From positions 1 to 22,953 of the IMG/VR virus record IMGVR_UViG_3300044641_008938: a stretch of 22,953 bases of DNA, one strand, 5' to 3'. The translations under genes and the position numbers were made by a program. The stretch comes from a virus. This document shows positions 3,807-21,261 of this stretch, one piece after another; position 1 is the stretch's first letter; every line of letters starts with the position of its first letter. A model generated the notes under the pieces. That model made no database searches, was not told the origin of the DNA, and saw only the letters and a program-made list of their open reading frames with translations.

Positions 3807-4463
3807 ATGGACACCTACAAAGCAACCAATACGAAGAACGGCAAGTTCTACATCGGTAGCACGACCAATTTTGAGCGTCGTAAAAAAGGGCACCTAAGGT
3901 CAAGAGAAAATTACCCTTTTCAGAACGCTCTCCGAAAGAACCCTGAGGTATTTGAGTGGGAGTGTTGGACAGACGAGTATAATGAGCCCATACTTGAGCA
4001 AGCACTACTGGACATGTGGTTCGGCAAGGAGTGCTGCTATAATCTAAACCCCTCTGCACAACACCCCCCTCGCGACCCGGATGGTATGCGGAAGGGGGGC
4101 GAGAGCGCCGGTAAAATCGCTAAAGAAAGAGGTCAAATACAGCAGTTAGGAAGAACAGGTGGCCAAGGAAAGAAGAACGTAGAGTCAGGCCTACTAAAAC
4201 GGATTGCGCCCCTAGGCGCAGCAGCATTAAGTACCGAGCAGCGCTCTTGTGCAGGAAAGCGCGGTGGTACAACTCAGGGGAATAGAAATGTGGCCTCAGG
4301 CTTACTTGATTCGATAAGAACCCAGGAAGGGTGCAGAAGGGGAGGAGAGACGACGGGAAACAAACCTTATTGGACGGACGGTAAGAAAAATAAAAGAAGC
4401 TATGAGTGCCCAGGTGAAGGTTGGCGCCGAGGAATGACCAAAAGAAAGAAGGCAACCGGGTAA
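3807..4463 (+). CDS. GIY-YIG homing-type endonuclease with NUMOD3-like repeats
   Basis: 218 residues. The N-terminal 85 residues are a GIY-YIG nuclease: TYKATNTKNGKFYIGSTTNF, then ERRKKGHL with the expected Arg, and Glu64 (EPILEQALLD) as the likely metal-binding acid. The first motif reads Asp-Thr-Tyr rather than Gly-Ile-Tyr, a divergence that may or may not affect activity. Residues 90-190 contain Gly/Lys-rich NUMOD3-like DNA-binding repeats, including two near copies of the pattern QG(K/N)xNVxSGLL. The end (SYECPGEGWRRGM) is a tail motif I associate with phage GIY-YIG and HNH proteins. Base composition looks more A-rich than the flanking structural genes. It sits between two structural units and its last codon and stop overlap the next promoter-like motif. 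Confidence 0.88.
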   Translation: MDTYKATNTKNGKFYIGSTTNFERRKKGHLRSRENYPFQNALRKNPEVFEWECWTDEYNEPILEQALLDMWFGKECCYNLNPSAQHPPRDPDGMRKGGESAGKIAKERGQIQQLGRTGGQGKKNVESGLLKRIAPLGAAALSTEQRSCAGKRGGTTQGNRNVASGLLDSIRTQEGCRRGGETTGNKPYWTDGKKNKRSYECPGEGWRRGMTKRKKATG

Positions 4464-4469
4464 AACCTA
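4458..4469 (+). promoter_or_regulatory. GGGTAAAA promoter-like motif (copy 2)
   Basis: GGGTAAAACCTA overlaps the final Gly codon and TAA stop of the GIY-YIG gene and lies 33 bases before the ATG at 4491. No Shine-Dalgarno follows. It is positioned to drive the two fibre-region genes, which end at the terminator at 10722. Confidence 0.6.
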
Positions 4470-4490
4470 ATTGATAAATGCCTGGTTAAA

Positions 4491-4961
4491 ATGGCTGCGT
4501 CTTTCCCGCCGAATCCATCTGTGGGACAACTATATACCAGTAATGGTAGGACTTGGAAGTGGACAGGAACCCAATGGACTGCGCAAGCGGTTACCACACC
4601 AACCTCTGCACCGGTGTATGTAAGTGTCTCCCCTCCGCCCAACCCTATCCAAGGCTCTCTTTGGTATGACAGCAATAATTCTTATTTGAATATATGGTAT
4701 ACTGACCTGAACGGTGGTGCCTGGATTTCAGTGACCCCTTTCCCCGAAGATAATATCGACCAGAACGGCGGTGTCTTCCAGGGTGCCATCTACGCGCAGT
4801 ACGAAATCCCAAACAATCCCGCTGCCTTCATTACCGTTGGCTACTTCCAAGATCAGCTTGTCGCATATCTGACAGGCGAGGGATACGTGCGAGCAGGCAA
4901 CGGCATCCAACTCGACGTCAGCGGCGAAGTTCTCTCCATCGATTCCGGACTTATCGTTTAA
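4491..4961 (+). CDS. Small tail-fibre-associated structural protein
   Basis: 156 residues, starting Met-Ala. Two repeats typical of phage fibre and appendage proteins are visible: residues 6-30 (PPNPSVGQLYTSNGRTWKW, then a TQW turn) and residues 47-80 (PPPNPIQGSLWYDSNNSYLN, then GGAWISV). The C-terminal third (GYVRAGNGIQLDVSGEVLSI) resembles the beta-rich segments of fibre shafts. No signal peptide or membrane segment is present. It directly precedes the giant fibre gene by four bases, so it is probably an attachment or chaperone-like partner of that fibre. The family is recognised only in general terms. Confidence 0.72.
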   Translation: MAASFPPNPSVGQLYTSNGRTWKWTGTQWTAQAVTTPTSAPVYVSVSPPPNPIQGSLWYDSNNSYLNIWYTDLNGGAWISVTPFPEDNIDQNGGVFQGAIYAQYEIPNNPAAFITVGYFQDQLVAYLTGEGYVRAGNGIQLDVSGEVLSIDSGLIV

Positions 4962-4965
4962 TACC

Positions 4966-7900
4966 ATGGCACTTACCGTTCAAAATCTTCGCGCCATTGG
5001 CAACGGCGTCGAGCCCGCCTCGCTCCTGCCAGGCCAAATCGCCTTCAACATCACCGATAAGATCCTTTACGTTGGTGACGGATCTAATACAAAGACCTCT
5101 TTCGACGGCACACAGGCTTCGGGTGTCCCTGGCGAAGGCTGGTACTCCATGCCCATGGACTTCGCCTCCCTGGGCGATTACTATGTGGTCAATCCCGAGG
5201 TCTACGGTGACACTCCCACCGATCAACAGGTTCTCACCTGGAGTGACGCATACAATCACCCCATCTGGACTTCAGGTGGTGGTGGTGGCAGCAACCAGGT
5301 TTACATCACCGATAACGCCACTGTTGCCGCCGCTTCCGGCGCCACTGTCAGCGACAAAATCACCACGGCCATCGGCGTAGCCTCCCCTGACGAAGGCAAT
5401 GTCACCATTGTCACTGGTTTGCCCGACGATGTATACGAAGGTCTCTACTTCTTCACCACCGAGTGGGTGCGCGGCGCATCTTACGCCTACCCGAGCGCCT
5501 CTGAGGTTATCTATGATAACACAGCTCACCCAGGCCTGACCGCTACCGTTCAAGGCGCCATCAGTGACCTTGATGACGGTCTCGCTGCCACTACAGCCAT
5601 CGCGAACACTGCCAACAGCACAGCCAACTCTGCTCTGAGCATCGCTAGCGCAGCTCTGCCTAAGGCTGGTGGAACCATGGTGGGCACCATCGTTGCCCGC
5701 AACATTGATATTCAAACCTCCTATTTCCTTCAGTTCAACGGCGGTGGTGACGGCCAAATCTTTGGCATTACTGACTCCACTGTTTTCAACTCCTCAACTA
5801 CCGCAGCTTCTGCAAAAGCCGTAGCCGATACCTACGCCGTGGCTGCTGCTGCTCTGCCCGTGGCAGGCGGCATCATGACCGGCCCTATCACCTTTGCTGC
5901 CGGTCAGATTTTCCCAGTCTCCGGCATCCAGGACGCCACCTACATTCAGAAAGGTGTTGTCCAGGTTGGCACGAACATCGACGTGCTGGGTGGTGTAATT
6001 TCTGTTGCCACTTCTTCTCTTGGCAACCTTGGAGTTGTTCAGCTGAACAACCTCACCAACAGCACCTCCACATCACAGGCCGCCACTGCAAATGCAGTAA
6101 AGCTGACTTACGACTTGGCCACCAACGCCAACAACACCGCCAATGCTGCGGTACCTCGCGCTTCCTACACAGCGTCTGGCGACCTCGTGGTAGGAACGGG
6201 CGCAGGCACTTTCACACACCTGACTGCAGGGCCTGCGGACTACATCCTGGCTTCTACTGGCGCGGGAACTTTGGCCTGGGTTTCTCAGTCTGAGGGTGAC
6301 GTTACCGGTGTCACCGGGACAGCTCCAGTCACTGTGGACAACCTTGACCCACAGAACCCGATCATTGGTGTGAACCAGGCAACCACCGCCACCACGGGTG
6401 TTGTTCAGGTCGATGTTCTCGGCAACATCAACATTGCCAGCGGTGTAATTACTGTTCCAAACGCCTCTACAACCGTTCGCGGCGCGGTCCAACTTTACAA
6501 CGGAGTGGACAGTGGCTCTACTACCCTTGCGCTGACTGCTGCCCAAGGCCAGTTCCTGCAAGGTCAAATTGACACCCTGACCCTATCCAACAGTGTAATC
6601 CTTGCTGGCGGATACGACGCCACAACCGGTCTTGTCGACGGAGTGACAAGCCAGGGCACCACCGCTGGATTTGCTGATGGCTTTGCGCCGCCTGCTGCAG
6701 ATGCCACAACCGTTGACCACTACCTCATTTGCACAGCTGCCGGCAACAATCCGTCAGCGATGGAAAACGGTGACTGGCTGCTGGCTGTTGAGACATCTCC
6801 CGGTGTTTATGCCTATCAGGTTCTCGGCGTTGGCGCCCGCCCCGCCGTTGCTTCCTACACCCAAGTAGGCGTCACTCAGCTGGCTGACGGCGCAGCCGTC
6901 CTTGCGGGAACTGCTGACTCTCTGGCAATCACTCCCCAGGCGTTGCAGGACAACGTCATTGACTCGGTCACCACCGCCAATAGCAATCAAATTGCCTCGG
7001 CTACCGCTGTAAAGACAGCGAACGATAACGCTCTCGCAGCCCAGTCCACTGCCAACGCAGCTCTGCCAAAAGCCGGCGGCACGATGACGGGCAGTATTGT
7101 TGCGCATGACGTCAATGTTCAGACCGGGTACTCCATCTTGTTCGCTAACGGGCTGAGTGGCACTGTTAATGCAGTTAGTGATTCAACTTCCACCACGTCT
7201 AGCACCACTGCTGCCTCAAGCACCGCTGTAAAGGCTGCTTACGATGCAGGGGCTGCGGCTATCCCGTGCTCGACAATTACAGCCACTGGGGACATCCTGG
7301 CAGGTGTTGGTGCTGTGCCTACCGCTCTTCCCGTTGGTACTGACGGTCAGGTTCTTGTAGCCAATAGCGCTTGCGCAACGGGTCTTGAGTGGGTTACGGA
7401 CGTTCCAGGCGATGTAACCAGTGTTAGCGGTACTTCTCCGATCACGGTAGACAACACCGACCCGCAAAACCCGGCTGTCGGTATTGACGCTGCTTCGGTG
7501 CTTCAGCCTGGGGCGGTTCAACTTGACGACACTGTAACCTCAATCTCTGTAACAGAGGCAGCTACAGCAAACGCTGCCAAGACCGCATACGACGCTGGCG
7601 TTCAAGGTCAGGCCGACGCTGCTGCCGCACAAGTCACGGCTGATCAAGCTGTTCTTGATGCTGCTGCCGCTCAGGCAACCGCTGATGCTGCCGTACCTTG
7701 CGCCTCCTTTACTGCGCTTGGTGAGATTCTGGCTGGAACTGGGTCAGGAACCTACTCAGCCCTCCCCGTTGGCGCAAATGGTCAATTCCTGGCCGCTAAC
7801 TCGGGAACTGGCACAGGTCTTGAGTGGTGCACATTGTCTCTCGCCTGCGTCCCATGCTCTGCCTTCACCGCTGCCGGACAACTGCTCGCTGGTACAGGAA

Positions 7901-10710
7901 CAAGCACCTTTACTGCTCTCAACGTAGGTTCCAACAACCAGTTCCTGGTTGCGGATAGCGCCTGCACTGGTGGTCTGAAGTGGTTGACCGCCCAAGGCGC
8001 TCTCCTTTGCGGTTTCACTTGCACAGCAACACCTTTCAACACTGTCCTCGGCGGCTTAGCCGGTGCGGCACTCACGGGTCTCTCCGTAGCCAACACGGCC
8101 ATTGGCTATGCTGCTCTGGACAGCGAGACTTCCGGTGACTTCAACGTTGCAATCGGTCACAATGCTCTGACTGCTCAAAACGGTGCTTCAGGGAACACGG
8201 TTATTGGGGGAAATGCTGGTGCTCAAGTAACAAGTGGTTCTAGCAACACCTTCGTCGGTTGCTCTGCTGGTGACGTTGCAACAACTGGTTCTTTCAACTT
8301 GGCGGTTGGTCCTAACGCCTTGGGCGCTACGACTACGGGATCTTGCAACGTCGCTATCGGGTCTAACTCCCTGCTCGGCGTCACCACCGTTAACTTATTG
8401 ACCGCTGTTGGCGTTAACTCGCTTTGCGGAAACACAACTGGCACACAAAACACAGGCGTCGGTTGGAGCGTTCTAAGCACTAACACAACAGGGTCCAACA
8501 ACACCGCACTTGGCTACCGGGCGGGTGTGGCCCTCAGTGGCAGCAATAACACCATCGTCGGTAATAACGCTGGTGCAGCTCTGGGCGTCGCCTCTGGTAA
8601 CACTCTTATTGGTAACAGTGCTGGTGTTAGCCTTACCACCGGTGCCTGCAACACCCTTGTTGGTGGTTACACTGGTACGACCACACTGAGCAACAACGTC
8701 GTTCTCTCTGACGGTGCCGGAACTATCCGTTTCCAGGCCAACCAGACAGGTGCCTGGTCACCTGACGGCACCAACTTCGGCACAGCTGGTCAGTTCCTCG
8801 CCTCAAACGGTACTGTTGCCGCTCCCTCTTGGTGTACTCTGTCTCTCGCCTGCATTCCTTGCGCCGCCTTTACTACTACTGGACAACTTCTGGCGGGAAC
8901 CGGCTCAAGCACCTTCTCGGCTCTTACGGTCGGTACGAACGGTCAGTTCCTCTCGGCAAATTCAGCTTGTTCTGCAGGGCTAGAGTGGTGCACTCTGTCT
9001 TTGGCTTGTGTTCCTTGTTCCGCCTTTACCGCTGCTGGTCAGTTGCTGGCTGGTACGGGAGCAAACACCTTTACTTCTCTCAACGTTGGCACAAATGGCC
9101 AGGTCCTAATTGCTGACTCCGCTTGCACGAGTGGTGTGAAGTGGGGTGCCTCTCTGCAAGGTTACACTTGTGCCGCCACTCCGTTCAATACGGCTCTGGG
9201 CACGAACGCTGGCGACAGCATTACATCCGGTACTGACAACGTGACCCTTGGCTACAACGCTGGCACCGCGATTACGACAGGCAGTCAGAATGTTGTTATT
9301 GGCAGTGGAGCAGCCGTATCCTCAAACGCCGTTGGCGTAGTTGCCGTCGGATTCTGTTCCGGTCAAGCGTTGACTACGGGTGGATGTATTACCCACATCG
9401 GCTATGTTTCTGGTCGTAATTCTACTGGTGCAAGCAACACCTACGTAGGTGCCTTGACCGGTTGTGCCGCTTCGAATACTTCTGCCTGCGGCACCTTACT
9501 CGGCTTCTGTGCTGGTTCGGCGCTAACAACTGGTAACGGCAACATCTTGGTCGGTTTCCAAACAGGTCGTAACGTCAACAGCGGCGCCAACAACGTTGCC
9601 ATCGGTACAGCTGCCTTCCAGACTGCAACCACAGCCACCAACAACGTCGCTGTTGGTTGTGGCGCTCTGTCAGGTCTCTCCACTTCCTCAGGTAACACCG
9701 CTTTGGGCCACCGGGCGATGCTCAATGCTTCGACGGCGGCGAACAACGTTGCGGTCGGTTGCAATGCAGGTGAACAACTCTCGACCGGATCGAACAACGT
9801 TTTAATCGGGGACAGCGCCGGAGACACAATTACAACGGGCACTCAAAACACCTTCGTCGGTTCTGGCTCTGGCGGTTTGGTTGCTACTACCTCAGAGGGC
9901 AACACGGGCCTTGGTTTCAGTGCCTTGGGTCAAGGTGTTACGTCGGGTGCCTACAACACCGCTGTTGGCAACAGCGCTGGTTTGGCATTGACTTCCGGTG
10001 CCCTCAACACCCTTATCGGTTACACTGCTGGCCAGGCCATCACAACTGGCGGTAGCAACACCCTGGTGGGTCGTTACGTCGGTACCTCCACACTGGCAAA
10101 CAACGTCGTCCTTTCCGACGGTGCTGGCACCATCCGCTTCCAGTCCAACGCCTCTGGCGCTATCAGCCTGGGTGCGGGCGGTACATACGGCACTGCTGGT
10201 CAGATTCTCGTCTCCGGTGGCTCTGGTGCTGCACCTGTTTGGACCAGCTCTGGCACAGCTGCTGCCAACTACGGATCTTTTGTTCGCACAACAACTCAAA
10301 CAAACGCAGGTGGTGCCAGCGGTAACGCAGTTTCGTATGACACCACAAGTTCGGCAAATAACTTCTCGATCGTGAGTGGGTCTCGGATCACGGCAGCGGT
10401 GGCTGGAACCTACCAGATCTTGGCCAGTTTGCAGGTTCAAAAGACGGATGCTGGCTCAGACGATGTCAATTTCTGGATCAAAAAGAACGGCGTCAACGAA
10501 CCAAACTCTGCTTACAACCTAACTCTTCAAGGAAGCGGCGCTGCCCAACTCGGTTACATTAACTGGGTGGTTACTCTGGCCGCTGGGGAGTATGTGGAAC
10601 TGTGGTGGTACTCCGCAGACGCTAACGCTCGTCTTCTGACCGACCCCGCTGTTGCCCCCTACCCTGCTGTGCCCGCTTCAGGGTTCATTATTCACCCGAT
10701 GGGCGCCTAA
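4966..10710 (+). CDS. Giant tail fibre, YadA-head-like repeats with C1q-like C-terminus
   Basis: 1914 residues. N-terminal 50 residues carry a fibre attachment pattern (SLLPGQIAFNITDKILYVGD). Residues about 200-950 are Ala/Thr/Ser-rich shaft with repeated units of the type ALPKAGGTMxG, TANAVKxxYD and LAGTGxxTxxALxVG. Residues about 1019-1257 and 1399-1725 contain many short repeats of the form NTxxGxxAGxxxTxGxxN, as in the left-handed beta-roll of trimeric autotransporter heads; each block ends in a near-identical NNVVLSDGAGTIRFQ segment. Three copies of a module WCTLSLAC(V/I)PC start at residues 954, 1289 and 1341, giving unusually many cysteines. Residues about 1768-1914 resemble a C1q/TNF-like jelly roll, a common receptor-binding tip. 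The protein is probably a homotrimeric adhesin. Start ATG lacks a Shine-Dalgarno. The C-terminal fold call is the least certain part. Confidence 0.85.
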   Translation: MALTVQNLRAIGNGVEPASLLPGQIAFNITDKILYVGDGSNTKTSFDGTQASGVPGEGWYSMPMDFASLGDYYVVNPEVYGDTPTDQQVLTWSDAYNHPIWTSGGGGGSNQVYITDNATVAAASGATVSDKITTAIGVASPDEGNVTIVTGLPDDVYEGLYFFTTEWVRGASYAYPSASEVIYDNTAHPGLTATVQGAISDLDDGLAATTAIANTANSTANSALSIASAALPKAGGTMVGTIVARNIDIQTSYFLQFNGGGDGQIFGITDSTVFNSSTTAASAKAVADTYAVAAAALPVAGGIMTGPITFAAGQIFPVSGIQDATYIQKGVVQVGTNIDVLGGVISVATSSLGNLGVVQLNNLTNSTSTSQAATANAVKLTYDLATNANNTANAAVPRASYTASGDLVVGTGAGTFTHLTAGPADYILASTGAGTLAWVSQSEGDVTGVTGTAPVTVDNLDPQNPIIGVNQATTATTGVVQVDVLGNINIASGVITVPNASTTVRGAVQLYNGVDSGSTTLALTAAQGQFLQGQIDTLTLSNSVILAGGYDATTGLVDGVTSQGTTAGFADGFAPPAADATTVDHYLICTAAGNNPSAMENGDWLLAVETSPGVYAYQVLGVGARPAVASYTQVGVTQLADGAAVLAGTADSLAITPQALQDNVIDSVTTANSNQIASATAVKTANDNALAAQSTANAALPKAGGTMTGSIVAHDVNVQTGYSILFANGLSGTVNAVSDSTSTTSSTTAASSTAVKAAYDAGAAAIPCSTITATGDILAGVGAVPTALPVGTDGQVLVANSACATGLEWVTDVPGDVTSVSGTSPITVDNTDPQNPAVGIDAASVLQPGAVQLDDTVTSISVTEAATANAAKTAYDAGVQGQADAAAAQVTADQAVLDAAAAQATADAAVPCASFTALGEILAGTGSGTYSALPVGANGQFLAANSGTGTGLEWCTLSLACVPCSAFTAAGQLLAGTGTSTFTALNVGSNNQFLVADSACTGGLKWLTAQGALLCGFTCTATPFNTVLGGLAGAALTGLSVANTAIGYAALDSETSGDFNVAIGHNALTAQNGASGNTVIGGNAGAQVTSGSSNTFVGCSAGDVATTGSFNLAVGPNALGATTTGSCNVAIGSNSLLGVTTVNLLTAVGVNSLCGNTTGTQNTGVGWSVLSTNTTGSNNTALGYRAGVALSGSNNTIVGNNAGAALGVASGNTLIGNSAGVSLTTGACNTLVGGYTGTTTLSNNVVLSDGAGTIRFQANQTGAWSPDGTNFGTAGQFLASNGTVAAPSWCTLSLACIPCAAFTTTGQLLAGTGSSTFSALTVGTNGQFLSANSACSAGLEWCTLSLACVPCSAFTAAGQLLAGTGANTFTSLNVGTNGQVLIADSACTSGVKWGASLQGYTCAATPFNTALGTNAGDSITSGTDNVTLGYNAGTAITTGSQNVVIGSGAAVSSNAVGVVAVGFCSGQALTTGGCITHIGYVSGRNSTGASNTYVGALTGCAASNTSACGTLLGFCAGSALTTGNGNILVGFQTGRNVNSGANNVAIGTAAFQTATTATNNVAVGCGALSGLSTSSGNTALGHRAMLNASTAANNVAVGCNAGEQLSTGSNNVLIGDSAGDTITTGTQNTFVGSGSGGLVATTSEGNTGLGFSALGQGVTSGAYNTAVGNSAGLALTSGALNTLIGYTAGQAITTGGSNTLVGRYVGTSTLANNVVLSDGAGTIRFQSNASGAISLGAGGTYGTAGQILVSGGSGAAPVWTSSGTAAANYGSFVRTTTQTNAGGASGNAVSYDTTSSANNFSIVSGSRITAAVAGTYQILASLQVQKTDAGSDDVNFWIKKNGVNEPNSAYNLTLQGSGAAQLGYINWVVTLAAGEYVELWWYSADANARLLTDPAVAPYPAVPASGFIIHPMGA
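8020..8745 (+). repeat. First block of YadA-head-like repeats inside the fibre gene
   Basis: Within the fibre gene, coding repeats of roughly 20-25 codons follow the pattern N-x-x-x-G-x-x-A/S-G/L with intervening T-T/S-G-S. The block begins after a Cys-containing segment with TPFNTVLGG and ends with NNVVLSDGAGTIRFQ. It is paralogous to the block at 9160-10140. Confidence 0.75.
9160..10145 (+). repeat. Second block of YadA-head-like repeats inside the fibre gene
   Basis: This block repeats the architecture of the first: a Cys-containing entry with TPFNTALG, a longer run of NTxxGxxAG-type units, and a closing NNVVLSDGAGTIRFQ at about 10105-10142. The DNA of the two blocks differs at many third positions, so the duplication is not recent. 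Confidence 0.75.
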
Positions 10711-10721
10711 CTTATCTCACT

Positions 10722-10747
10722 GGGCACCTTCGGGTGCCCTTTGTTTT
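10722..10747 (+). terminator. Rho-independent terminator with UUCG loop
   Basis: GGGCACC pairs perfectly with GGTGCCC around a TTCG tetraloop and is followed by TTTGTTTT. It lies 11 bases after the fibre stop codon and 12 bases before the next promoter-like motif, so it separates the fibre unit from the terminase unit. Confidence 0.93.
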
Positions 10748-10759
10748 GCGAGGCAAACC

Positions 10760-10771
10760 GGGTAAAACTTG
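10760..10771 (+). promoter_or_regulatory. GGGTAAAA promoter-like motif (copy 3)
   Basis: GGGTAAAACTTG lies directly downstream of the terminator and 31 bases before the TTG at 10791. The usual spacing of the other copies supports that TTG as the start codon. Confidence 0.6.
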
Positions 10772-10790
10772 CTATCTGCCGTGAAGTAAC

Positions 10791-12035: not shown

Positions 12036-12193
12036 TGCAATCCGCTCAGCAACTCTGGAATAGCTACCATGCAGCTGTAGCTGCGGGTAACACTGATTTG
12101 GCAAAGCGTATCTTGCGCTCCCTGCACGGTTACAAAGGCAATCCCCCGCCGACACGTGGTGGGTGTGCCAAATGCAAACGGAGACTATTCTAA
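12035..12193 (+). CDS. Small protein with CxxC motif
   Basis: 52 residues, with an ATG overlapping the previous TAA by one base and its own TAA overlapping the next ATG by one base, so it is translationally coupled on both sides. The N-terminal half is helical (MQSAQQLWNSYHAAVAAGN), the C-terminal half is basic with CAKCKRRLF. A single CxxC pair could be half of a zinc site completed in a dimer. Function unknown; its position just before the terminase genes is the only clue. Confidence 0.65.
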   Translation: MQSAQQLWNSYHAAVAAGNTDLAKRILRSLHGYKGNPPPTRGGCAKCKRRLF

Positions 12194-12471
12194 TGGAAGA
12201 CCGCAAAGACGAAGTTGTAAAACAAAAGGAATTTCTGGCTCAAGAGGCCCTGAAAGTTGCCAACGAGGCTATCGGTCTGCTTCAAGATCAAATGTCCGAG
12301 TGCTCTACTCGGGATCTGGTTCAGATTTTTACAGCATCCGTAAAAGCTCACCGGGAGATTACGGAGGATATTGTGTTGCTTACCGCGAAGGAAGCACCCT
12401 CCGAACAAGAGCTTGCTAAGGAGTATGACGGAAAGGTCGAAGAGCTTCTGAAGCGAATCAGCAACTTCTAA
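12193..12471 (+). CDS. Putative small terminase subunit
   Basis: 92 residues, highly charged and predicted to be almost entirely helical (DEVVKQKEFLAQEALKVANE, then DLVQIFTASVKAHREI and a final helix ELAKEYDGKVEELLKRI). A GGAG lies eight bases before the ATG. It ends one base before the large terminase gene, the classical place for TerS, and its size and helical oligomer-like design fit that role. I see no clear helix-turn-helix DNA-binding motif, so the call depends mostly on position. Confidence 0.6.
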   Translation: MEDRKDEVVKQKEFLAQEALKVANEAIGLLQDQMSECSTRDLVQIFTASVKAHREITEDIVLLTAKEAPSEQELAKEYDGKVEELLKRISNF

Positions 12472-12472
12472 C

Positions 12473-14224: not shown

Positions 14225-14242
14225 TTTACTCTGGTAGGTTAG

Positions 14243-14252
14243 AGGTAAAATA
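14243..14252 (+). promoter_or_regulatory. Promoter-like motif, AGGTAAAATA variant with short spacing
   Basis: AGGTAAAATA lies 14 bases before the ATG at 14257, half the usual distance. Like the element at 3791 it precedes a homing-type endonuclease, and initiation there would leave almost no leader. Confidence 0.4.
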
Positions 14253-14256
14253 AGCC

Positions 14257-14787
14257 ATGAAGCACAGTCACCACATAAAACCCAGATATGAGGGTGGTTC
14301 AGACGACCCTGAAAACCTTGTGGAGCTGACCCCCACTCAACACGCAATGTGGCACTATGCCGAATGGTTCAGAAAAAATAATCTAGAAGATTATTTGGCA
14401 TGGAAGGGTCTTGTTGGTCACATAGGGAAAGAAGACATCCTCCTGGAAATAGCACTGGAAAATGGAAGAAAACTTCAAGAGTGGTTAAAAAACAATCCGG
14501 TAAAGAGAGCCAAGTCGTCGGAAACCAAGAAGAAAATCTCCCAATCAATGGTTAAATATAGGCGAGAAAAGGATATACCCCGATTGCCTCCTCCGGTCGG
14601 AAGTAGAGGGATTAGGGGGAGAAAACCAAAACCGGTTGAACTTACCTCCCCGTGCGAAAATTTTGCCCTGGTGTTTGAGTCTGCTGTAAAAGCAGGGGAA
14701 TGCCTAAACCTGAACCCCAGCGCCATTACAAAATGTGCCAGAGGTGTGTGGACCAACACGGGCGGTTGGAGAGTTCGTTACATTTAG
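14257..14787 (+). CDS. HNH homing-type endonuclease with NUMOD3/NUMOD1-like modules
   Basis: 176 residues. The HNH nuclease begins at once: MKHSHHIKPRYEGGSDDPEN supplies His5-His6, followed by NLVELTPTQHAMWHY with the Asn and later His of the motif. Residues about 85-105 (SSETKKKISQSMVKYRR) match a NUMOD3-type DNA-binding repeat. Residues about 130-176 (FALVFESAVKAGECLNLNPS, then ITKCARG and a final GGWRVRYI) match a NUMOD1/IENR1-like helix-turn-helix. The A-rich codon use differs from the neighbouring terminase gene, supporting mobility. HNH proteins beside TerL can assist packaging in other phages, but this modular design fits a freestanding homing endonuclease better. No intron or intein boundaries were seen. 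Confidence 0.88.
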   Translation: MKHSHHIKPRYEGGSDDPENLVELTPTQHAMWHYAEWFRKNNLEDYLAWKGLVGHIGKEDILLEIALENGRKLQEWLKNNPVKRAKSSETKKKISQSMVKYRREKDIPRLPPPVGSRGIRGRKPKPVELTSPCENFALVFESAVKAGECLNLNPSAITKCARGVWTNTGGWRVRYI

Positions 14788-14814
14788 TGGTGATTGGTAA
14801 CCACCACGATAATA

Positions 14815-14825
14815 AAATAAAAGTT
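14815..14825 (+). promoter_or_regulatory. Weak promoter-like motif (AAATAAAAGTT)
   Basis: AAATAAAAGTT keeps the TAAAAG core and lies 34 bases before the ATG at 14849, but lacks the GGG. It sits in an A/T-rich stretch and could be a degenerate member of the series or chance. Confidence 0.25.
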
Positions 14826-14826
14826 G

Positions 14827-14842
14827 CTGTTGTTCACAACAG
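14827..14842 (+). other. Perfect leader hairpin upstream of small gene
   Basis: CTGTTG pairs perfectly with CAACAG around a TTCA loop and ends six bases before the ATG at 14849. There is no T-tract, so it is not a terminator. In the mRNA leader it could affect stability or ribosome entry. Confidence 0.5.
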
Positions 14843-14848
14843 ATTACC

Positions 14849-15040
14849 ATGGCACTGAATCCTGTTGACCGTAATGCTAAACTCATGCAACAAGAGTTCG
14901 GCACAAGAGTTTTAATTACTGACCTGGCTGCTGACCGCTATCTTGAGAAAGCCGCTAAAGAAAACCCCAGCCAAAAGAAATTTACCGAGTTCTGCGGAAA
15001 GCAAAACGGTTGGGACGACTACACCGAGCGCTGGCACTGA
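14849..15040 (+). CDS. Small protein of unknown function
   Basis: 63 residues starting Met-Ala, helical and charged (MALNPVDRNAKLMQQEFGTR, then an Asp/Ala-rich helix and DDYTERWH at the end). No Cys, no membrane segment. It is a single-gene unit between an HNH endonuclease and the PhoH gene. The conventional ATGGC start and a hairpin-containing leader support it as real. I do not recognise a family. Confidence 0.65.
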   Translation: MALNPVDRNAKLMQQEFGTRVLITDLAADRYLEKAAKENPSQKKFTEFCGKQNGWDDYTERWH

Positions 15041-15088
15041 GTATATTCAGTGGTTGCTAGAGAGGGAAGCATGGTGGACCCTGTAGCC

Positions 15089-15100
15089 GGGTAAAAGTAT
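15089..15100 (+). promoter_or_regulatory. GGGTAAAA promoter-like motif (copy 4)
   Basis: GGGTAAAAGTAT lies 32 bases before the ATG of the PhoH gene in the 80-base gap that precedes it. No Shine-Dalgarno lies near the ATG. It would drive a unit running to about 18255. Confidence 0.6.
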
Positions 15101-15120
15101 GGGTCGGCTGCAGTCCTCCA

Positions 15121-15936
15121 ATGCCCGATTCTATTTCTCAAGGGGGTGATTTGCATGTAGAGCTTATCGGACACGAAGCGTATGATCTACCCACAGTTGT
15201 CAATTTATTTAACATGCTCACCTCCAAGGATAAGCGCAAGAACCGTCGCGCTGAAGCTGCCCAGATGTTAGAGAACGCCTACCACAAAGGTATGGACGTT
15301 CAGCCACCCAAGTTCCTTACCTGGCGACAGGAAGAACTCTGGAACTGCTTTCAAAGGAACACCGTAACCCTGGCTCATGGTTGCGCCGGAACCGGTAAGA
15401 CCCTCATTGCTCTCCATTATGGACTTTTCGGAGTCGCCCAAGGCACTTTCGACAAGGTCTATTATGTCCGTAGCGACGTAGGTGTCGAATTCCAACGTGG
15501 ACGTGGTGCTTTACCTGGCGACCTTTCTGAAAAAATCGCTCCCCTCATTGCTCCAGTTTTAGACAATCTACCTTGCATTATGCGCTCCCAGGGCGCAGCA
15601 GAATACCTCCTCAACAAGAAAATCATTGAGCCGGTGCTTCTGGAAGACATCCGTGGCCGCTCACTGAACGAAGCCTTCATCATCGTCGATGAGTCGCAGA
15701 ACTTCCTGCCCTCGCACATCAAAACTTGCCTGTCTCGTGTAGGTAAGGACTCTAAGATCTGCCTCATCGGTGATACGAAACAGACGGACCTTGAAGTGTT
15801 CCGTCGGGAGAATGGACTTGTCGATGCCATTCACCGCCTGCGCCAACTCTCTGAAGTAGGTGTGGTGGAGTTCCACAAAGAAGACATCGTGCGCAACTCC
15901 GTTATCGCACACATTTTAGACCGCTACGACGACTGA
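15121..15936 (+). CDS. phoH: PhoH-like ATPase
   Basis: 271 residues. Walker A is GCAGTGKT (87-94), Walker B is AFIIVDESQN (185-194), and the sensor-like LIGDTKQTD lies at 215-223, all standard for the PhoH family. The preceding segment LTWRQEELWNCFQRNTVTLA matches the usual approach to the P-loop; an N-terminal extension of about 65 residues carries no known domain. PhoH is common in marine phages, including cyanophages; proposed roles are in RNA metabolism and response to phosphate stress, but its activity is not settled. Its stop overlaps the next ATG by one base (TGATG), so the two are likely translated together. Confidence 0.93.
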   Translation: MPDSISQGGDLHVELIGHEAYDLPTVVNLFNMLTSKDKRKNRRAEAAQMLENAYHKGMDVQPPKFLTWRQEELWNCFQRNTVTLAHGCAGTGKTLIALHYGLFGVAQGTFDKVYYVRSDVGVEFQRGRGALPGDLSEKIAPLIAPVLDNLPCIMRSQGAAEYLLNKKIIEPVLLEDIRGRSLNEAFIIVDESQNFLPSHIKTCLSRVGKDSKICLIGDTKQTDLEVFRRENGLVDAIHRLRQLSEVGVVEFHKEDIVRNSVIAHILDRYDD

Positions 15937-17354
15937 TGGCAACAAAGGGACCTATGACAACCGCTACCAAAGGTAAATCGGGAGCCATGGGTTCCGCCAC
16001 AGGGAGGCGGCATGCTCCAACCGCGAGTCAGGTTGAGCGAGCCAAACGTCAAGCCGTGGGGGGGAGCAGGAAAAGATGCACCCGCGGTAAGAACTGCTCT
16101 GCTGCCTGCATCTCTGCCAATAAGGTCTGCCTGGTAACCTTTCCAACCCCGGTCCAGGACCCCATTCGCAGGGTGCGGGACTTCCTGAGACAGAAGAATA
16201 ACATTCAACCCGGCAGTATTCAAGACAGGCGCATTAATGCAGCCATTGACAAGATTGTCCCCGTAATCAAGGTGGCGGCAGAAGGCAAGCATGCCACTCC
16301 AAAAACAGGTAAAATGGAGAAGCCTGAAGTCGAGTGGAAGAGGGACGCCAAGCGAGCAGAGCGTCCCGCCCTACCGTGGAACGAAATTCAAGGATTAAAG
16401 AAAAGGAAGGATCTGCTCTCTCAGGCTGAGGTGGAGAGGGAGGCAATGAGAGCCCTTCACCGAGACGCCACCTCTCGCGGTCTGCGTCTCCCACGCGCAG
16501 AGTTGGAGATGATCTACGAGGTTTTACCAAAAAATGTTCAAACATCTCTCGCGAAGTCTGGAAGAGCGGGAACCGATCAGTGGTATGCTGGAAAGGATGA
16601 CCAAGGCAAGGCAACTTTCTCCAAGGGTGCTGGAAAAGAGAGAGCTCTGGCCGTTCTGGATCTCTGGTTCAGGCAAGGGGGCACAGACGCCTATCAAGGC
16701 CGTGGAAGCAAGATGTGGGCACCACCGGATCTGAGTGTTGAGCACATTATCCCCCTATCCAAAGGCGGCGTTGACGCCCCCTCCAACTGGGTTCTCATCC
16801 GCAGGGGCACAAACCTGGAGCGCCAATCCCAAGGTCTCGGCAAGTGGATCGACAAGCTGCCGAGTTCACGCGAAGAGTATAAAACATATGTGGGCAACTA
16901 CGCCTCAAATCGTCGCAAGACACGCACCAAAAAAGCTGCCGCTGCGTTGATTAACCCCAAGCAACTCTCGGATAAAGAGGTGTTCGGGCAGAGTGCACGA
17001 GGGCTTGCATTGCTATTCCGCGCTGAAAACGGTAATAAAACTCCCGGAACTTTCACAAAGGAGTGGCTCGGGATCAAGGACACCAGCACACGGACAGGAA
17101 ACTCCGGGCCTCCGGTCCCATTCGCAAAAGGTCTGGGCCTCATCGCAAAAACTCAAGGCCTCCCTGCTGCTCGCGATGTCGGCAATCGGATGAAAACCAT
17201 CTGGAACAAAAACTGGAAACAGGACGGAAAACTAAGCAAGCAGCAAGCTTTCCAGCAGATGATGTCCGAGATGAAGTCCTCACTATCGGCAGAACAGTTT
17301 AATATGTTTTCTCCCGCTGCGATGAAGTGGGCCAACACCAACGGTTTCCTCTGA
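15936..17354 (+). CDS. Protein with N-terminal Cys cluster and internal HNH motif
   Basis: 472 residues. The first 45 residues are basic and disordered, followed by a compact Cys cluster C-x5-C-x3-C-x6-C (Cys48, 54, 58, 65; CTRGKNCSAACISANKVC), a pattern I associate with phage head-region proteins. Residues about 85-230 are Lys/Arg-rich helices. An HNH motif lies at about 265-300: SVEHIIPLSKGGVDAPSNWV, with His270 and Asn284 as expected. The final 170 residues are helical with a hydrophobic end (NMFSPAAMKWANTNGFL). No NUMOD module is present, and it is translationally coupled to PhoH and to the next gene, so unlike the other endonucleases it looks like a resident gene. It could act in DNA processing during packaging; that is inference. 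Confidence 0.78.
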   Translation: MATKGPMTTATKGKSGAMGSATGRRHAPTASQVERAKRQAVGGSRKRCTRGKNCSAACISANKVCLVTFPTPVQDPIRRVRDFLRQKNNIQPGSIQDRRINAAIDKIVPVIKVAAEGKHATPKTGKMEKPEVEWKRDAKRAERPALPWNEIQGLKKRKDLLSQAEVEREAMRALHRDATSRGLRLPRAELEMIYEVLPKNVQTSLAKSGRAGTDQWYAGKDDQGKATFSKGAGKERALAVLDLWFRQGGTDAYQGRGSKMWAPPDLSVEHIIPLSKGGVDAPSNWVLIRRGTNLERQSQGLGKWIDKLPSSREEYKTYVGNYASNRRKTRTKKAAAALINPKQLSDKEVFGQSARGLALLFRAENGNKTPGTFTKEWLGIKDTSTRTGNSGPPVPFAKGLGLIAKTQGLPAARDVGNRMKTIWNKNWKQDGKLSKQQAFQQMMSEMKSSLSAEQFNMFSPAAMKWANTNGFL

Positions 17355-17686
17355 TGAGAAAGACTACAGAGTTTAGACGCCCAGAGCGTAGTGAAATTGA
17401 GAGCCGCCTACCCGCAGGAATTCTCTCTGACCCTCAAGCCCTTGGCGTTTGGAACATGATGCTTCGCGGGGGAGACCCTTCAGACATCGCCCACACCTAC
17501 CGCTCTTTTCGGGACAGCAGCCATTGCACTGTCCCTCGTGAGCATCTGCGATCCATGCGGGATGCAATGATTACCTCCATGCGTGAGGCCAATCGAAAAG
17601 ACCCAAACCCCCGGAAAGAGAAGAAGAAAGGTGTGCATTACAATTCCATGCCAGATGGCTGGATGCCCACAAGGAAAGGAGCTTGA
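17354..17686 (+). CDS. Small basic protein of unknown function
   Basis: 110 residues. The ATG overlaps the previous TGA by one base; an upstream in-frame ATG at 17327 would overlap the 472-residue gene by more and is not preferred. Composition is rich in Arg, Ser and Met, with a predicted helical core (DPQALGVWNMMLRGGDPSDI, then ahead to REHLRSMRDAMITSMREANR) and a Lys-rich tail (NPRKEKKKGVHYN). It could bind nucleic acid. No recognised family. Confidence 0.7.
   Translation: MRKTTEFRRPERSEIESRLPAGILSDPQALGVWNMMLRGGDPSDIAHTYRSFRDSSHCTVPREHLRSMRDAMITSMREANRKDPNPRKEKKKGVHYNSMPDGWMPTRKGA
17671..17681 (+). promoter_or_regulatory. Strong Shine-Dalgarno for the gene at 17689
   Basis: AAGGAAAGGAG ends seven bases before the ATG at 17689. 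It decides between that ATG and the in-frame TTG at 17683, which would sit only one base from the site. It is the strongest ribosome-binding site in the window. Confidence 0.75.
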
Positions 17687-17688
17687 CT

Positions 17689-18255
17689 ATGAACGCTAAG
17701 AAAGAAATCGAACGCCACAGGCTCCCATGCGGCCCCATGTCCGTTTCGATTGATGGCGTGTGCCGCCGCCGCCTGCGCGATAGTATGGATGCCTTGCTAG
17801 ACAAACTCACCCAGGAAACACACCCCGAGGGTGTTGATACCGAAATCCTTGAGATGGAGGAAGAAGTGGAAATTCCTGAAGAGCCGGAGCAGGAGGAAAC
17901 AGAGGAGGAGAAGAAAGGGCGCATGCTGCAAGACGGCAAGCTGAAAATCGATGTGAAGCGGGAGTTGGCAGCCTACGAGGCAGAAACTTCAGACGAGCCT
18001 GAGGAAGAGGGGGAAGAAGAAGAGACGGAGGATGCCGCAAAGAAACGCCTCATCCGAGAGGGCAAAATGAAGGCGGATGTGAAGAAAGTGGTTCAGAAAT
18101 ATGAAGAGAAGATAATGCCTAAGCCTAAGGCCACCCCGAAAGCTAAAACATCCGATCACTCTGAACCCGAGGGGGAGGAGGAGGATCTCGAAGGCAATAG
18201 CAAACTCCTCCAACGCACTGACGGTAAGATGACCCGGTGGCAAGGAAAAGGGTAA
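17689..18255 (+). CDS. Acidic, duplicated-helix protein (scaffold-like)
   Basis: 188 residues. The first 40 are basic with two Cys (HRLPCGPMSVSIDGVCRRRL), then come two long acidic runs around residues 53-75 and 104-120. Each is followed by a similar helix: EEKKGRMLQDGKLKIDVKRE and DAAKKRLIREGKMKADVKKV, an internal duplication of about 45 residues. A Lys/Pro linker (MPKPKATPKAKT) precedes another acidic patch and a basic end (MTRWQGKG). The acidic-basic design is typical of scaffolding or disordered assembly proteins. Its final Gly codon and TAA are part of the next promoter-like motif. Function is not known. Confidence 0.72.
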   Translation: MNAKKEIERHRLPCGPMSVSIDGVCRRRLRDSMDALLDKLTQETHPEGVDTEILEMEEEVEIPEEPEQEETEEEKKGRMLQDGKLKIDVKRELAAYEAETSDEPEEEGEEEETEDAAKKRLIREGKMKADVKKVVQKYEEKIMPKPKATPKAKTSDHSEPEGEEEDLEGNSKLLQRTDGKMTRWQGKG

Positions 18256-18261
18256 AAATAT
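18250..18261 (+). promoter_or_regulatory. GGGTAAAA promoter-like motif (copy 5)
   Basis: GGGTAAAAATAT overlaps the last codon and TAA of the previous gene and lies 30 bases before the ATG at 18280. No Shine-Dalgarno follows. Confidence 0.6.
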
Positions 18262-18279
18262 TCAAAACCTTTTTCCAAA

Positions 18280-18639
18280 ATGGATAAACAAACCGGGCCA
18301 AGCAACAGGGTTGGTGGCGACTTCAATCAAGACACCATTGAAGCATTCAGGGCCGCCTACGCTCAGCAACTGGCATCCCCCGATCAAGAAAACATTGCAA
18401 ACAATTCCGGATTACCAACCAACGTGGTAACCAACACGTCCCCCTGGATTGAGCACACAGGCCTCTGGAAATACCCCAGTGGCAGGGGGCCTGACGAGGA
18501 CTTGAAGGCTCCCTTCAACCCAAACGTGTATCTCTCTGACGAGGTGATGGACGGAGACGGTGAAATCGACGAAATGAGCGAAGAGGAGATCGAGCACCTG
18601 GTGAATGAGATCACTGGGGACAACGACGAGGAAGAATAG
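18280..18639 (+). CDS. Small acidic protein of unknown function
   Basis: 119 residues ending in a run of acidic residues (MSEEEIEHLVNEITGDNDEEE region). The first half contains a helix FNQDTIEAFRAAYAQQLASP; the middle is Pro/Gly-rich (WKYPSGRGPDEDLKAPFNP). No Cys and no membrane segment. It is a single-gene unit between two copies of the promoter-like motif. Scaffold or DNA-mimic roles are possible for such an acidic protein but unsupported here. Confidence 0.68.
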   Translation: MDKQTGPSNRVGGDFNQDTIEAFRAAYAQQLASPDQENIANNSGLPTNVVTNTSPWIEHTGLWKYPSGRGPDEDLKAPFNPNVYLSDEVMDGDGEIDEMSEEEIEHLVNEITGDNDEEE

Positions 18640-18650
18640 GGTAAAACCAG
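18639..18650 (+). promoter_or_regulatory. GGGTAAAA promoter-like motif (copy 6)
   Basis: GGGTAAAACCAG begins at the last base of the upstream TAG stop and lies 30 bases before the ATG at 18669. The 30-base leader has no Shine-Dalgarno. Confidence 0.6.
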
Positions 18651-18668
18651 TTCAGTTAGTAAATCGCC

Positions 18669-19379
18669 ATGTTCGGGTCATCATTTGACTTTTCATCTGT
18701 CACCCTGCCGGGTGTAGGCGGTGGCATCAACGCTAGTAACGCAATTAGCGGTGAGCAACTCAAGAAGATGAATGAGACCGGAAAGAAGTGGCGCCCGGGA
18801 CCTGACGGTATGGGAATGTCTCACCACAATGAAAGCATTCTGAAAATGAATGCAGAGCATCGCGAAAGGCGTGCCGGTCTCGTCAATCGCGACTATAACG
18901 AAAACGCCAATAGCCAAGATGCGATGAAGGAAATCTTCGATCGCAAGAAAGCTCGGATGTCTTCCTTCAAAGAAATGAAGCGAGGCGAGTATGGCTTCGC
19001 CGAAGGCGATTCCCAGGATTCTGAACTCCTGAGCATGCCCCTCCCTGGTTTCAAGGAATCCTGCTCCTGCGGCAGCTGCCCCTCCTGCGTCAACAAGAAA
19101 CAAAAAGATCAGGAGTATCGTGAGTGGAGCACCGAGAAGCGCAAGGCCCTGAAAGAGGGTAAGGTGGAAGGGGAGTTCGCTGGGCCGGATCAAAGTTTCC
19201 CCATCGCCAGTCCCGTGGATGTTGCAGCTGCATGGGCTTCCGTGGGTCGCGCTGCCAACCCTCGCGCAATCATGCGCAAAATCATCCAAATCGCGAAACA
19301 GCATAACTGGGAGTCTGGACTCCCGGAATCCGTCAAGAAACGACTGGCAGCTGGTGAGTCTGGTTTGCCGACGGAGTAA
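18669..19379 (+). CDS. Putative head-region protein with FAGP-SFPI segment and Cys cluster
   Basis: 236 residues. The N-terminal 120 residues are charged and likely flexible (SGEQLKKMNETGKKWRPGPD). Residues about 130-145 hold a tight Cys cluster, CSCGSCPSC, that could bind zinc. Residues about 174-232 contain a domain I associate with capsid and protease-linked phage proteins: FAGPDQSFPIASPVDVAAAW followed by a helical ASVGRAANPRAIMRKIIQIA and ESVKKRL. No catalytic residues are evident. It heads a unit of five closely packed genes. The head assignment is by resemblance of one segment and is tentative. Confidence 0.7.
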   Translation: MFGSSFDFSSVTLPGVGGGINASNAISGEQLKKMNETGKKWRPGPDGMGMSHHNESILKMNAEHRERRAGLVNRDYNENANSQDAMKEIFDRKKARMSSFKEMKRGEYGFAEGDSQDSELLSMPLPGFKESCSCGSCPSCVNKKQKDQEYREWSTEKRKALKEGKVEGEFAGPDQSFPIASPVDVAAAWASVGRAANPRAIMRKIIQIAKQHNWESGLPESVKKRLAAGESGLPTE

Positions 19380-19381
19380 TC

Positions 19382-19660
19382 ATGGGTGTTGAAACACTGG
19401 TGGCAATCGTTGCCTCCCTGGTAACAACAATGAGCGGTCTAGGGTGGGTCATTGATCGAAACGGGCGTAGAACTGACATACGGTTTGACACCGTTATCGC
19501 ACACATGTCAAAAGTAGAAAAAATGCTTAACGACATGCGAGCAGAGATGCCGATTAAGTACACCCTCAGGGAAGACCACATTCGCCTATCTGAAAAGGTT
19601 GAGCGAATCGAAACCGACATCCTGATCTGGAAGCACAAGGAGAGACCCACTAATGATTGA
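19382..19660 (+). CDS. Small membrane-anchored coiled-coil protein
   Basis: 92 residues. Residues 3-22 (VETLVAIVASLVTTMSGLGW) form one predicted membrane segment; the rest is a charged helix with heptad-like spacing, including DMRAEMPIKYTLREDHIRLS. This N-terminal anchor plus coiled coil is seen in small phage proteins close to lysis or tail genes, so a holin-accessory or spanin-like role is possible but unproven. GGAG lies five bases before the ATG. It overlaps the next gene by eight bases. Confidence 0.7.
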   Translation: MGVETLVAIVASLVTTMSGLGWVIDRNGRRTDIRFDTVIAHMSKVEKMLNDMRAEMPIKYTLREDHIRLSEKVERIETDILIWKHKERPTND

Positions 19661-20228
19661 AGATTACGACTGGGGCAGGCTGAGCGGGATGTATCCGGCT
19701 GAGTTTGTTGAAAAGATGAAAGGACTTGATGGGAAAGCCTGTTGGGATGGTTACAAGCTAGCAGGCACAAAGAAAAAAGGCGGTAAGAACGTTGACGATT
19801 GTGTTAAAATAAAGAAAGACGCTGAGCATGGCGAAGGCGACGTTGCCACTGCGGAAATGACTCCAAACTATTTGCCGAAAGAACCTGGCAAAGGCGACGA
19901 GAAGAACCCTCAAATGGGTGAACAAAAAATCCGCATGCCTCGCATGGAGGAGATTGTAAAGTCCTCCAACCGTAACGGCCATCTGGCAATGGCAGCTGCT
20001 CCCAACTATGCGGAAACCGAAGATTTTCATGATGCGTTCCAGTCAATGGAACCTAATGGCGGTATGGCAATCAACCAGCTTCGCGTAATGCGCGAAAAAA
20101 TTGACATCATGCTGGGAATGCTTTATCCCGACGACAACCTGGAGCCTTGGATGGCAACAAAACTAACAATGAGTGCTCAGAACCTGGCTTCTGTGGCCGA
20201 CTACATGCGTTTCGGAGCAGAACTGTGA
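19653..20228 (+). CDS. Conserved-looking phage protein, GKACWxGYK type, function unknown
   Basis: 191 residues, with AAGGAG ten bases before the ATG. Residues about 28-50 (DGKACWDGYKLAGTKKKGGK, then NVDDCVKI) match a short motif that recurs in structural and core proteins of cyanophages. The C-terminal region (DNLEPWMATKLTMSAQNLAS, then VADYMRF) resembles another recurrent phage helix of the form EPWxxSKIxxAxDYxxxVxDY. The middle is Lys/Glu/Pro-rich linker. The resemblance points to a head or packaging-associated protein, but the role is unknown. Its TGA overlaps the GTG of the next small gene. Confidence 0.7.
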   Translation: MIEDYDWGRLSGMYPAEFVEKMKGLDGKACWDGYKLAGTKKKGGKNVDDCVKIKKDAEHGEGDVATAEMTPNYLPKEPGKGDEKNPQMGEQKIRMPRMEEIVKSSNRNGHLAMAAAPNYAETEDFHDAFQSMEPNGGMAINQLRVMREKIDIMLGMLYPDDNLEPWMATKLTMSAQNLASVADYMRFGAEL

Positions 20229-20359
20229 ACCCCGAACTTCACCACAAGTGGAATGCCGAGCGCACTCCGGACAGAGAAGCAAGCAAAGAAGGCGTGGTTG
20301 TCCTGAAAGAGGACTTAGCCAAAAACAAAGTAACCCTGAAGCAGAACAAACCGAGGTAA
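20225..20359 (+). CDS. Tiny protein, GTG start, overlapping its neighbour
   Basis: 44 residues. The GTG at 20225 overlaps the previous TGA (GTGA), and CGGAG lies seven bases upstream, so it is translationally coupled; a longer frame from 20147 would be embedded in the previous gene and is not preferred. The sequence is basic and acidic with no Cys (MNPELHHKWNAERTPDREAS, then a Lys-rich end). The next gene starts two bases after its stop. Function unknown. Confidence 0.62.
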   Translation: MNPELHHKWNAERTPDREASKEGVVVLKEDLAKNKVTLKQNKPR

Positions 20360-20361
20360 CC

Positions 20362-20727
20362 ATGTTTGGCGATTTTCCAGAAGACTTGCTAGAACAGTTC
20401 AAACGGGATTACGCTGAGCGTCAAGCAATGGCCATTGGCTACCCTCAGCCCTCCTTCATTGAGAAGGGGGATCTCAAGTGTAACTCCCCCAAGGCTGACC
20501 CGGTCGGTGACAGCACAACCGGTAAATCCCATGTGGTGAAAGCTTGCTCTGGTGGCCAGGAAAAACTCATTCGATTTGGTCAGCGAGGTGTGAAAGGGTC
20601 CCCGAAGAAGGAGGGTGAGTCCGAAGCCTACCGCAGTCGACGAGAGAGATTCAAAACTCGGCATGCAAAAAACATTGCCAAAGGAAAAATGAGCGCAGCA
20701 TACTGGTCTAATCGTACGAAGTGGTGA
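20362..20727 (+). CDS. Conserved small phage protein, KMSAAYWSNRTKW type
   Basis: 121 residues, with GAGG five bases before the ATG; the frame is open upstream, but that portion overlaps earlier genes. The N-terminal 35 residues are acidic (MFGDFPEDLLEQFKRDYAER). The C-terminal 60 residues carry a widespread small-protein signature: EKLIRFGQRGVKGSPKKEGE, then RSRRERFKTRHAKNIAKGKM and AAYWSNRTKW. I have seen this signature in unrelated phages without a known function. The basic end may bind nucleic acid. It is the last gene of its unit. Confidence 0.78.
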   Translation: MFGDFPEDLLEQFKRDYAERQAMAIGYPQPSFIEKGDLKCNSPKADPVGDSTTGKSHVVKACSGGQEKLIRFGQRGVKGSPKKEGESEAYRSRRERFKTRHAKNIAKGKMSAAYWSNRTKW

Positions 20728-20739
20728 GCAAGGTGAAGT

Positions 20740-20751
20740 GGGTATAACTAA
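20740..20751 (+). promoter_or_regulatory. Promoter-like motif, GGGTATAACTAA variant
   Basis: GGGTATAACTAA differs by one base in the core and lies 30 bases before the ATG of the HNH gene at 20770. Its spacing is identical to that of the exact copies at 18250 and 18639. Confidence 0.55.
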
Positions 20752-20769
20752 TTTAGTTACAACCACATC

Positions 20770-21261
20770 ATGCAAGTTACCAAAGGGCCTGACGGACGAT
20801 ACTATAAACCTTGCCCAGAGTGTGGAGAAACACAAAGCTACCTCCGTGCTTGCTATGCCAGAGAATCTCTCCGCCTAAGTAAAGCGTGTAAAAAATGCAG
20901 TAACCGAAAAACAGACAATTCCCATCGTGGGTGGTACAGAGGTATTAGAATTAGTTGGTTCAACAAGTTTAGAGTCTGTGCGGAAACTCGTGGAAAAGTT
21001 TATAACATTTCTCTCGACGATGTTGCCGATGCCCATGAAAAACAAGGTGGTCGATGTGCTCTCACGGGGTGGGACATAACCTTCCCGGAAATTGGTCATC
21101 CCTCCAACCTCAATTGCAGCATCGATCGCATCGACAACTCCCGTGGATACGAGCCCGATAACATCCAACTCATTGACGGCCGGGTAAATATGATGAAGGG
21201 GAAGTACTCCCAAGAACTTTTCAAAGAAGTCTGCAAAGCAGTTGCAGATAACCTGGGGTAA
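20770..21261 (+). CDS. HNH endonuclease with zinc-ribbon-like N-terminus
   Basis: 163 residues. Two Cys pairs (CPEC at 15-18 and CKKC at 40-43) form a likely zinc site. The nuclease core follows: GGRCALTGWDITF (93-105), SIDRIDNSRGYEPDNIQLID (117-136) and RVNMMKGKYS (138-147), with the DRID-type HNH core in place of the usual first His and Asn residues at 131 and 140. Such proteins act as freestanding homing nucleases. It is flanked on both sides by promoter-like motifs, and its last Gly codon and TAA lie inside the downstream copy. No NUMOD module is present. Whether it is active cannot be told. Confidence 0.87.
   Translation: MQVTKGPDGRYYKPCPECGETQSYLRACYARESLRLSKACKKCSNRKTDNSHRGWYRGIRISWFNKFRVCAETRGKVYNISLDDVADAHEKQGGRCALTGWDITFPEIGHPSNLNCSIDRIDNSRGYEPDNIQLIDGRVNMMKGKYSQELFKEVCKAVADNLG

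Follow-up and report, generated by a model that had tools for sequence, protein, structure and literature searches.

Free-standing homing endonuclease genes of several designs as precise inserts in short intergenic gaps of a cyanophage-like virus

Three endonuclease genes of differing design each lie at a boundary between transcription units of one viral contig and disrupt no visible gene—are such sites simply harmless, or do the enzymes recognize a target near the promoter motif that two of them touch? An earlier note on this DNA had offered both readings, and here we weigh them by comparing the contig, a 22,953-base IMG/VR virus sequence (hereafter the window), with its relatives. A megablast search of the window against phage records returned no close match to isolated phages. 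At the terminase the window shares 55% identity with Synechococcus phage S-CBWM1, and its late genes (adaptor, terminase, PhoH) have S-CBWM1 counterparts in the same order. By these similarities the virus is S-CBWM1-related and cyanophage-like, and its hosts would be those suggested by way of S-CBWM1. S-CBWM1 itself (L179-L181) carries two annotated sigma factors, a ribonucleotide reductase intein, and a group I intron homing endonuclease gene (HEG) in psbA.

The discovery set comprised about 140 related IMG/VR loci, fetched with three conserved genes; the contigs compared are metagenomic and mostly partial. HEGs in the relatives were called from Pfam GIY-YIG, HNH, NUMOD3, or NUMOD-like matches for many, and from similarity plus motif for the rest. 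A held-out sample of 80 loci around the portal gene was then counted with predictions fixed beforehand and only previously unseen ORFs included; an earlier held-out scan, which used a poorly conserved gene, had yielded only two loci. The features discussed below are collected in Table 1.

Table 1. Endonuclease ORFs, inserts, and promoter-like or repeated elements in the window.
Feature	Position	Strand	Details
GIY-YIG free-standing endonuclease ORF, 218 aa	3807-4463	+	PF01541, E=1.9e-7, above Pfam cut-off
HNH free-standing endonuclease ORF, 176 aa, I-HmuI NUMOD-like C-terminus	14257-14787	+	PF01844 just at cut-off
DRID-type HNH free-standing endonuclease ORF, 163 aa, two CxxC pairs	20770-21261	+	PHROG matches, sequence motifs
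Insert 1, ~684 bp	3774-4457	+	Between stop of head-tail adaptor-like gene (2694-3773) and next gene's GGGTAAAAC motif
Insert 2, ~562 bp	14225-14786	+	Between TerL stop and hairpin-like leader of 63-aa gene
Insert 3, ~528 bp	20728-21255	+	Between PHROG 7595 gene (20362-20727) and GGGTAAAAC motif of 21291 gene
TTTAC-N16-TAAACT, promoter-like, directly after upstream stop	3774-3800	+	ATG 6 bp past -10-like hexamer
TTTAC-N16-TAAAAT, promoter-like	14225-14251	+	ATG 5 bp downstream
GGGTAAAACCTAA, late-type promoter motif of 4491 gene	4458-4470	+	TAA is the GIY-YIG stop
GGGTAAAACCTAA, late-type promoter motif of 21291 gene	21256-21268	+	TAA is the third HEG stop
GAAGTGG direct repeat, period 17 bp	20718-20741	+	Copy 1 is the upstream gene end, copy 2 at HEG leader
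GGGTATAAC, promoter-like variant before third HEG	20740-20748	+	Overlaps the repeat in the window

That the window holds three homing-type ORFs of differing design, as first noted, holds up: the coordinates are right and GIY-YIG or HNH motifs are recognizable. Pfam assigns a GIY-YIG or HNH domain to the first two, and all three match PHROG families annotated as homing endonuclease or endonuclease. The I-HmuI NUMOD-like match of the second ORF falls below the Pfam threshold (E=0.0018); its orthologue at the same site in L069 passes (7.5e-7). The third ORF has no Pfam match above cut-off but matches PHROG 3322 'endonuclease' (2e-18) and PHROG 1035 'endonuclease VII' (9e-18), and contains two CxxC pairs with DRIDN..GY..DN. 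The endonuclease VII match and the CxxC pairs recall the F-CphI and other DHHRN cyanophage endonucleases (PMC6083498); however, the third ORF has DRID in place of their DHDH core. It reads SIDRIDNSRGY and lacks the invariant first histidine of the DH(D)H core, and its assignment as a DHHRN (F-CphI / Endo VII) enzyme was rejected; we found no solved structures for it. A fourth HNH-bearing ORF of 472 aa (15936-17354) follows PhoH and is conserved in the relatives; it is a core gene of the clade and not an insert, and looks unlike a mobile HEG.

Each of the three sites has an empty counterpart. Site 1 has 19 distinct empty alleles whose flanks are homologous; their gap measures 32-41 bp, compared with 717 bp in the window, and most relatives lack this insert. 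At site 2 the gap is 48-68 bp in 51 distinct empty alleles, as against 624 bp in the window, with L069 and L189 also occupied; at site 3 it is 32-39 bp in 9 distinct empty alleles, as against 563 bp. Insert borders are accurate within a few bases; no intron or intein is involved, and the flanking genes are intact at all three sites. The earlier note had held its proposal open to two outcomes, unrelated flanks in relatives lacking the endonucleases and vertical conservation of all three: the alignments instead give precise borders and homologous, related flanks throughout, and the genes are not vertically fixed. In the empty state the upstream stop and the motif overlap or lie a few bases apart, so an insertion anywhere but where the inserts lie would damage one of the two genes or the promoter. 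A further junction of the window, 18639-18669 (g119b/g236), lacks a conserved gene of 204-213 aa that about a dozen relatives carry.

The distribution of these genes is sporadic, with close relatives lacking one or more of the three and carrying others. Three contigs whose TerL is about 90% identical (L004-L006) have no HEG at site 2, and two of them (L005 and L006) none at site 1, while other HEGs lie elsewhere. In the corresponding 20 kb, the relatives together have about 30 HEG inserts; these belong to several unrelated designs and are spread over about a dozen junctions. This presence and absence pattern is, on comparative grounds, that of mobile rather than vertically inherited genes with high turnover, and by the same comparison the three inserts are recent gains. 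All 31 placeable HEG ORFs lie between two different core genes, and none is inside a core gene. The proposal of recurrent insertion at harmless boundaries is thus borne out by the empty alleles, by other HEGs at the same or other junctions, and by the lack of any split core gene. A separate GIY-YIG HEG, 31-34% identical to the 3807 enzyme, directly precedes the portal gene in L203, L212, L251, L240, L241, L229, L216, and L193, and its stop codon touches or nears the portal ATG.

Could survivorship alone produce this pattern, with insertions anywhere, aimed at no particular target, and only those in gaps persisting? The tiny gaps are the only neutral places and no HEG was found inside core genes, as such a process would leave them; however, divergent phages can carry a given HEG type at an identical junction—the third HEG after PHROG 7595, an LDHIDP HNH type at E1914/F414, and a YWG type at G102/TerL. 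This recurrence suggests site-specific homing on top of selection, and we regard survivorship by itself as unlikely.

What, then, would set the site? In the clade, GGGTAAAA is a real, strand-specific motif, with forward/reverse counts of 29/0, 31/0, and 16/0 in three clade contigs and 31/1 in S-CBWM1. The start codon lies a median of 24 bp downstream (180 genes), and we infer a late-type promoter. Copies in S-CBWM1 (L179-L181) mostly read GGGTAAAAT, and those in G001 and G002 mostly GGGTAAAAC. Classical TTGACA promoters, considered as an early class, showed no clear strand bias. Two HEGs of the window do end in an identical promoter motif, the GGGTAAAACCTAA copies at 4458 and 21256, which agree over 13 bases (12 in the earlier note). 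The claim that each HEG sits at a promoter boundary stands for sites 1 and 3 but not for site 2, because the junction of TerL and the 63-aa gene has a conserved tandem-hairpin-like leader and no GGGTAAAA motif. That leader (14787-14847) includes GTGGTGATTGGTAACCACCAC, TAAAAGTT, and CTGTTGTTCACAACAG, and its hairpin arms appear to covary across about 50 relatives; RNAalifold returned no pairs from a very gappy alignment that included one wrong 2-base row, and an Rfam search gave nothing credible.

The suggestion that the endonucleases recognize the conserved late-promoter motif, hopping from promoter to promoter, draws on the discovery set, in which 11 of 47 HEGs (2 in the window and 9 others) end exactly in GGGTAAAA, significantly more than the 28 of 1913 other ORFs. 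None of the 25 held-out HEGs has its stop inside the motif, however, and we rejected the feature as a general rule. Its absence there indicates that it reflects local geometry: HEGs adjoin the motif because in tiny gaps stop codon and motif nearly touch. Many HEGs also lie at junctions without GGGTAAAA, including G102/TerL, TerL/63-aa gene, and PhoH/HNH472, and since contigs of 92-112 kb carry about 30 copies of the motif each, an enzyme that cut there would probably shred its own genome. Relatives of the third HEG (48-71% identity) occur near genes for an endolysin, terminases, a portal, or a virion structural protein, and the gene downstream differs between phages, yet immediately upstream there is a gene with the PHROG 7595 domain. 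What stays the same is thus the 3' end of this upstream gene rather than the promoter. Recognition near the motif is thus not supported as a general account of these sites and is very unlikely; HEG position is better explained, as the junctions compare, by tolerated gaps and putative gene-end targets.

Many inserts begin with a promoter-like element, TTTAC-N16-TANNNT, immediately behind the upstream stop, and it is present in unrelated HEG designs of the relatives; the third HEG of the window lacks it. The strict pattern precedes 17 of 47 discovery HEGs compared with 11 of 1913 other ORFs (p=2e-22), counts in which related HEGs are not independent events. As the pattern had been drawn from these same HEGs, predictions were fixed and unseen loci counted: the held-out count, the only independent one, replicates it in 9 of 25 HEGs compared with 7 of 1209 others (p=1e-12). 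Five of those seven other ORFs begin like DNA polymerase, in G001 and G002 the element stands before DNA polymerase with spacers of 16 and 17 and the ATG 6 bp past the -10, and a primase gene in one contig carries it with a leader. Since the element precedes DNA polymerase, the class looks like a replication-time promoter, a timing read only from the DNA polymerase and primase genes that carry it. An ATG 5-7 bp after the -10 was found in 14 of 24 discovery HEGs, compared with none of 180 genes behind GGGTAAAA, and in 3 of 8 held-out HEGs, under the predicted half; the most that can be said is that transcription is often predicted to begin at the ATG, so that such mRNAs would often be leaderless. 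A search for dyad operators over the TTTAC promoters gave no consistent dyad.

HEGs that sit in structural clusters and are probably expressed with replication genes might be taken for domesticated nucleases that serve the phage, not selfish elements; however, presence and absence turn over between close relatives, and domestication is highly improbable.

The third HEG has a different head. In the window and in L146, L149, L150, L151, L152, and L153, the PHROG 7595 gene has an AARTGG at its end, and a second copy lies exactly 17 bp further on; L167 shares the 17-bp spacing and in L154 it differs. The second copy is absent from all alleles compared that lack this HEG (HNH3). We hypothesize, by analogy, that the 17-bp repeat could be an operator. 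I-TevI, which is intron-encoded, represses itself via a homing-site-like operator over its promoter, an effect that has been measured (PMC2988022); at the leader of the third HEG there is likewise a repeat of the region that it presumably targets, here a sequence pattern only. The promoter-like GGGTATAAC lies upstream of 4 of 47 discovery HEGs, compared with 0 of 1913 other ORFs, and before none of the held-out HEGs. Beside the ATG, the leader also contains an inverted repeat with 18-nt arms (83%) at 20734-20770, with an 8-bp one at the same place in L153.

Behind these heads the enzymes appear modular. Enzymes of one catalytic type agree well over their first 90 residues but often have unrelated C-terminal parts, even at the same site, while several pairs of GIY-YIG and HNH enzymes have C-terminal segments in common; the 3807 enzyme, for instance, is similar in its C-terminal half to HNH enzymes from a different junction (35% over 128 residues, E=5e-16). 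Judged by these alignments, GIY-YIG and HNH nucleases exchange their C-terminal modules.

Such exchange, together with inserts that often start exactly at the TTTAC element and sometimes end in GGGTAAAA, is also what one would expect if cassettes moved by recombination between shared regulatory sequences, with the promoter as seam, rather than by endonuclease cutting. Promoter-early stem-loop cassettes have been proposed for T4-type phages. However, the stretch of identical motif is short (9-13 bp), no motif is common to the right-hand borders at other junctions, and catalytic motifs look conserved by eye; movement at promoter seams is improbable.

The closest known kind is that of the T4 seg/mob genes, to which the genes here belong. 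T4 has 12 free-standing seg/mob HEGs, intergenic, seven of them promoterless, with HEG-specific promoters of the middle (5) or late (2) class; as here, GIY-YIG and HNH enzymes lie between conserved genes, and downstream promoters overlap or lie within HEG ends (PMC2988022). We rejected a description of the present genes as T4-type promoterless HEGs, given the predicted TTTAC-N16-TANNNT before ORFs 1 and 2 and GGGTATAAC before ORF 3. Unlike in T4, a single promoter-like element recurs here before unrelated designs, in many cases adjoining the stop codon of the preceding gene and with transcription expected to begin at the ATG: the variant is a predicted replication-class promoter, shared and placed at the upstream stop. 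A search of open-access papers turned up no description of this arrangement, a weak sign that it is new. That phage HEGs shuffle domains is already known, and as in the HEG islands of ICP1 and other phages, HEGs cluster at essential genes and exchange domains (PMC10448857); in contrast to those islands, C-terminal modules here cross the GIY-YIG/HNH catalytic types inside one phage clade. The main text of PMC10448857 mentions promoters 0 times.

The comparison documents precise inserts, empty alleles, turnover among several families, a shared promoter-like element, and swapped C-terminal modules, and we consider it quite probable that the three are free-standing HEGs acquired independently in short gaps through homing and selection and equipped with their own promoters. 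Insertion of each HEG would have taken place in the narrow interval that separates one gene's stop codon from the regulatory region opening the following late gene, with no damage to either gene or to the promoter downstream. When a relative with an empty allele infects the same cell, each enzyme would cut that allele; conserved coding sequence beside the gap probably determines where (for the third HEG, the 3' end of the PHROG 7595 gene), and repair of the break would copy the cassette into the cut allele. Selection would retain only insertions that spare stop codon and promoter. Many HEGs may be transcribed from their own TTTAC-N16-TANNNT promoter, often as leaderless mRNA, and would thus be made during replication, though placed among structural genes. 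More tentatively, and with less than even likelihood, all this may form one system: unrelated nucleases sharing a replication-class promoter head (at the upstream stop, with the ATG at the predicted start), exchanging catalytic and C-terminal modules behind it, and acting as interchangeable replication-window cassettes within late operons, with the 17-bp-spaced copy of the target end at the third HEG as operator or self-protection.

Free-standing HEGs must fit a compact phage transcription program, and the full and empty alleles at about a dozen junctions provide a natural series showing how they do so: they occupy tiny gaps, share a promoter class with replication genes, are predicted to start without a leader, and trade modules across the GIY-YIG and HNH types. 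Because close empty alleles exist at every site, the putative targets are directly testable.
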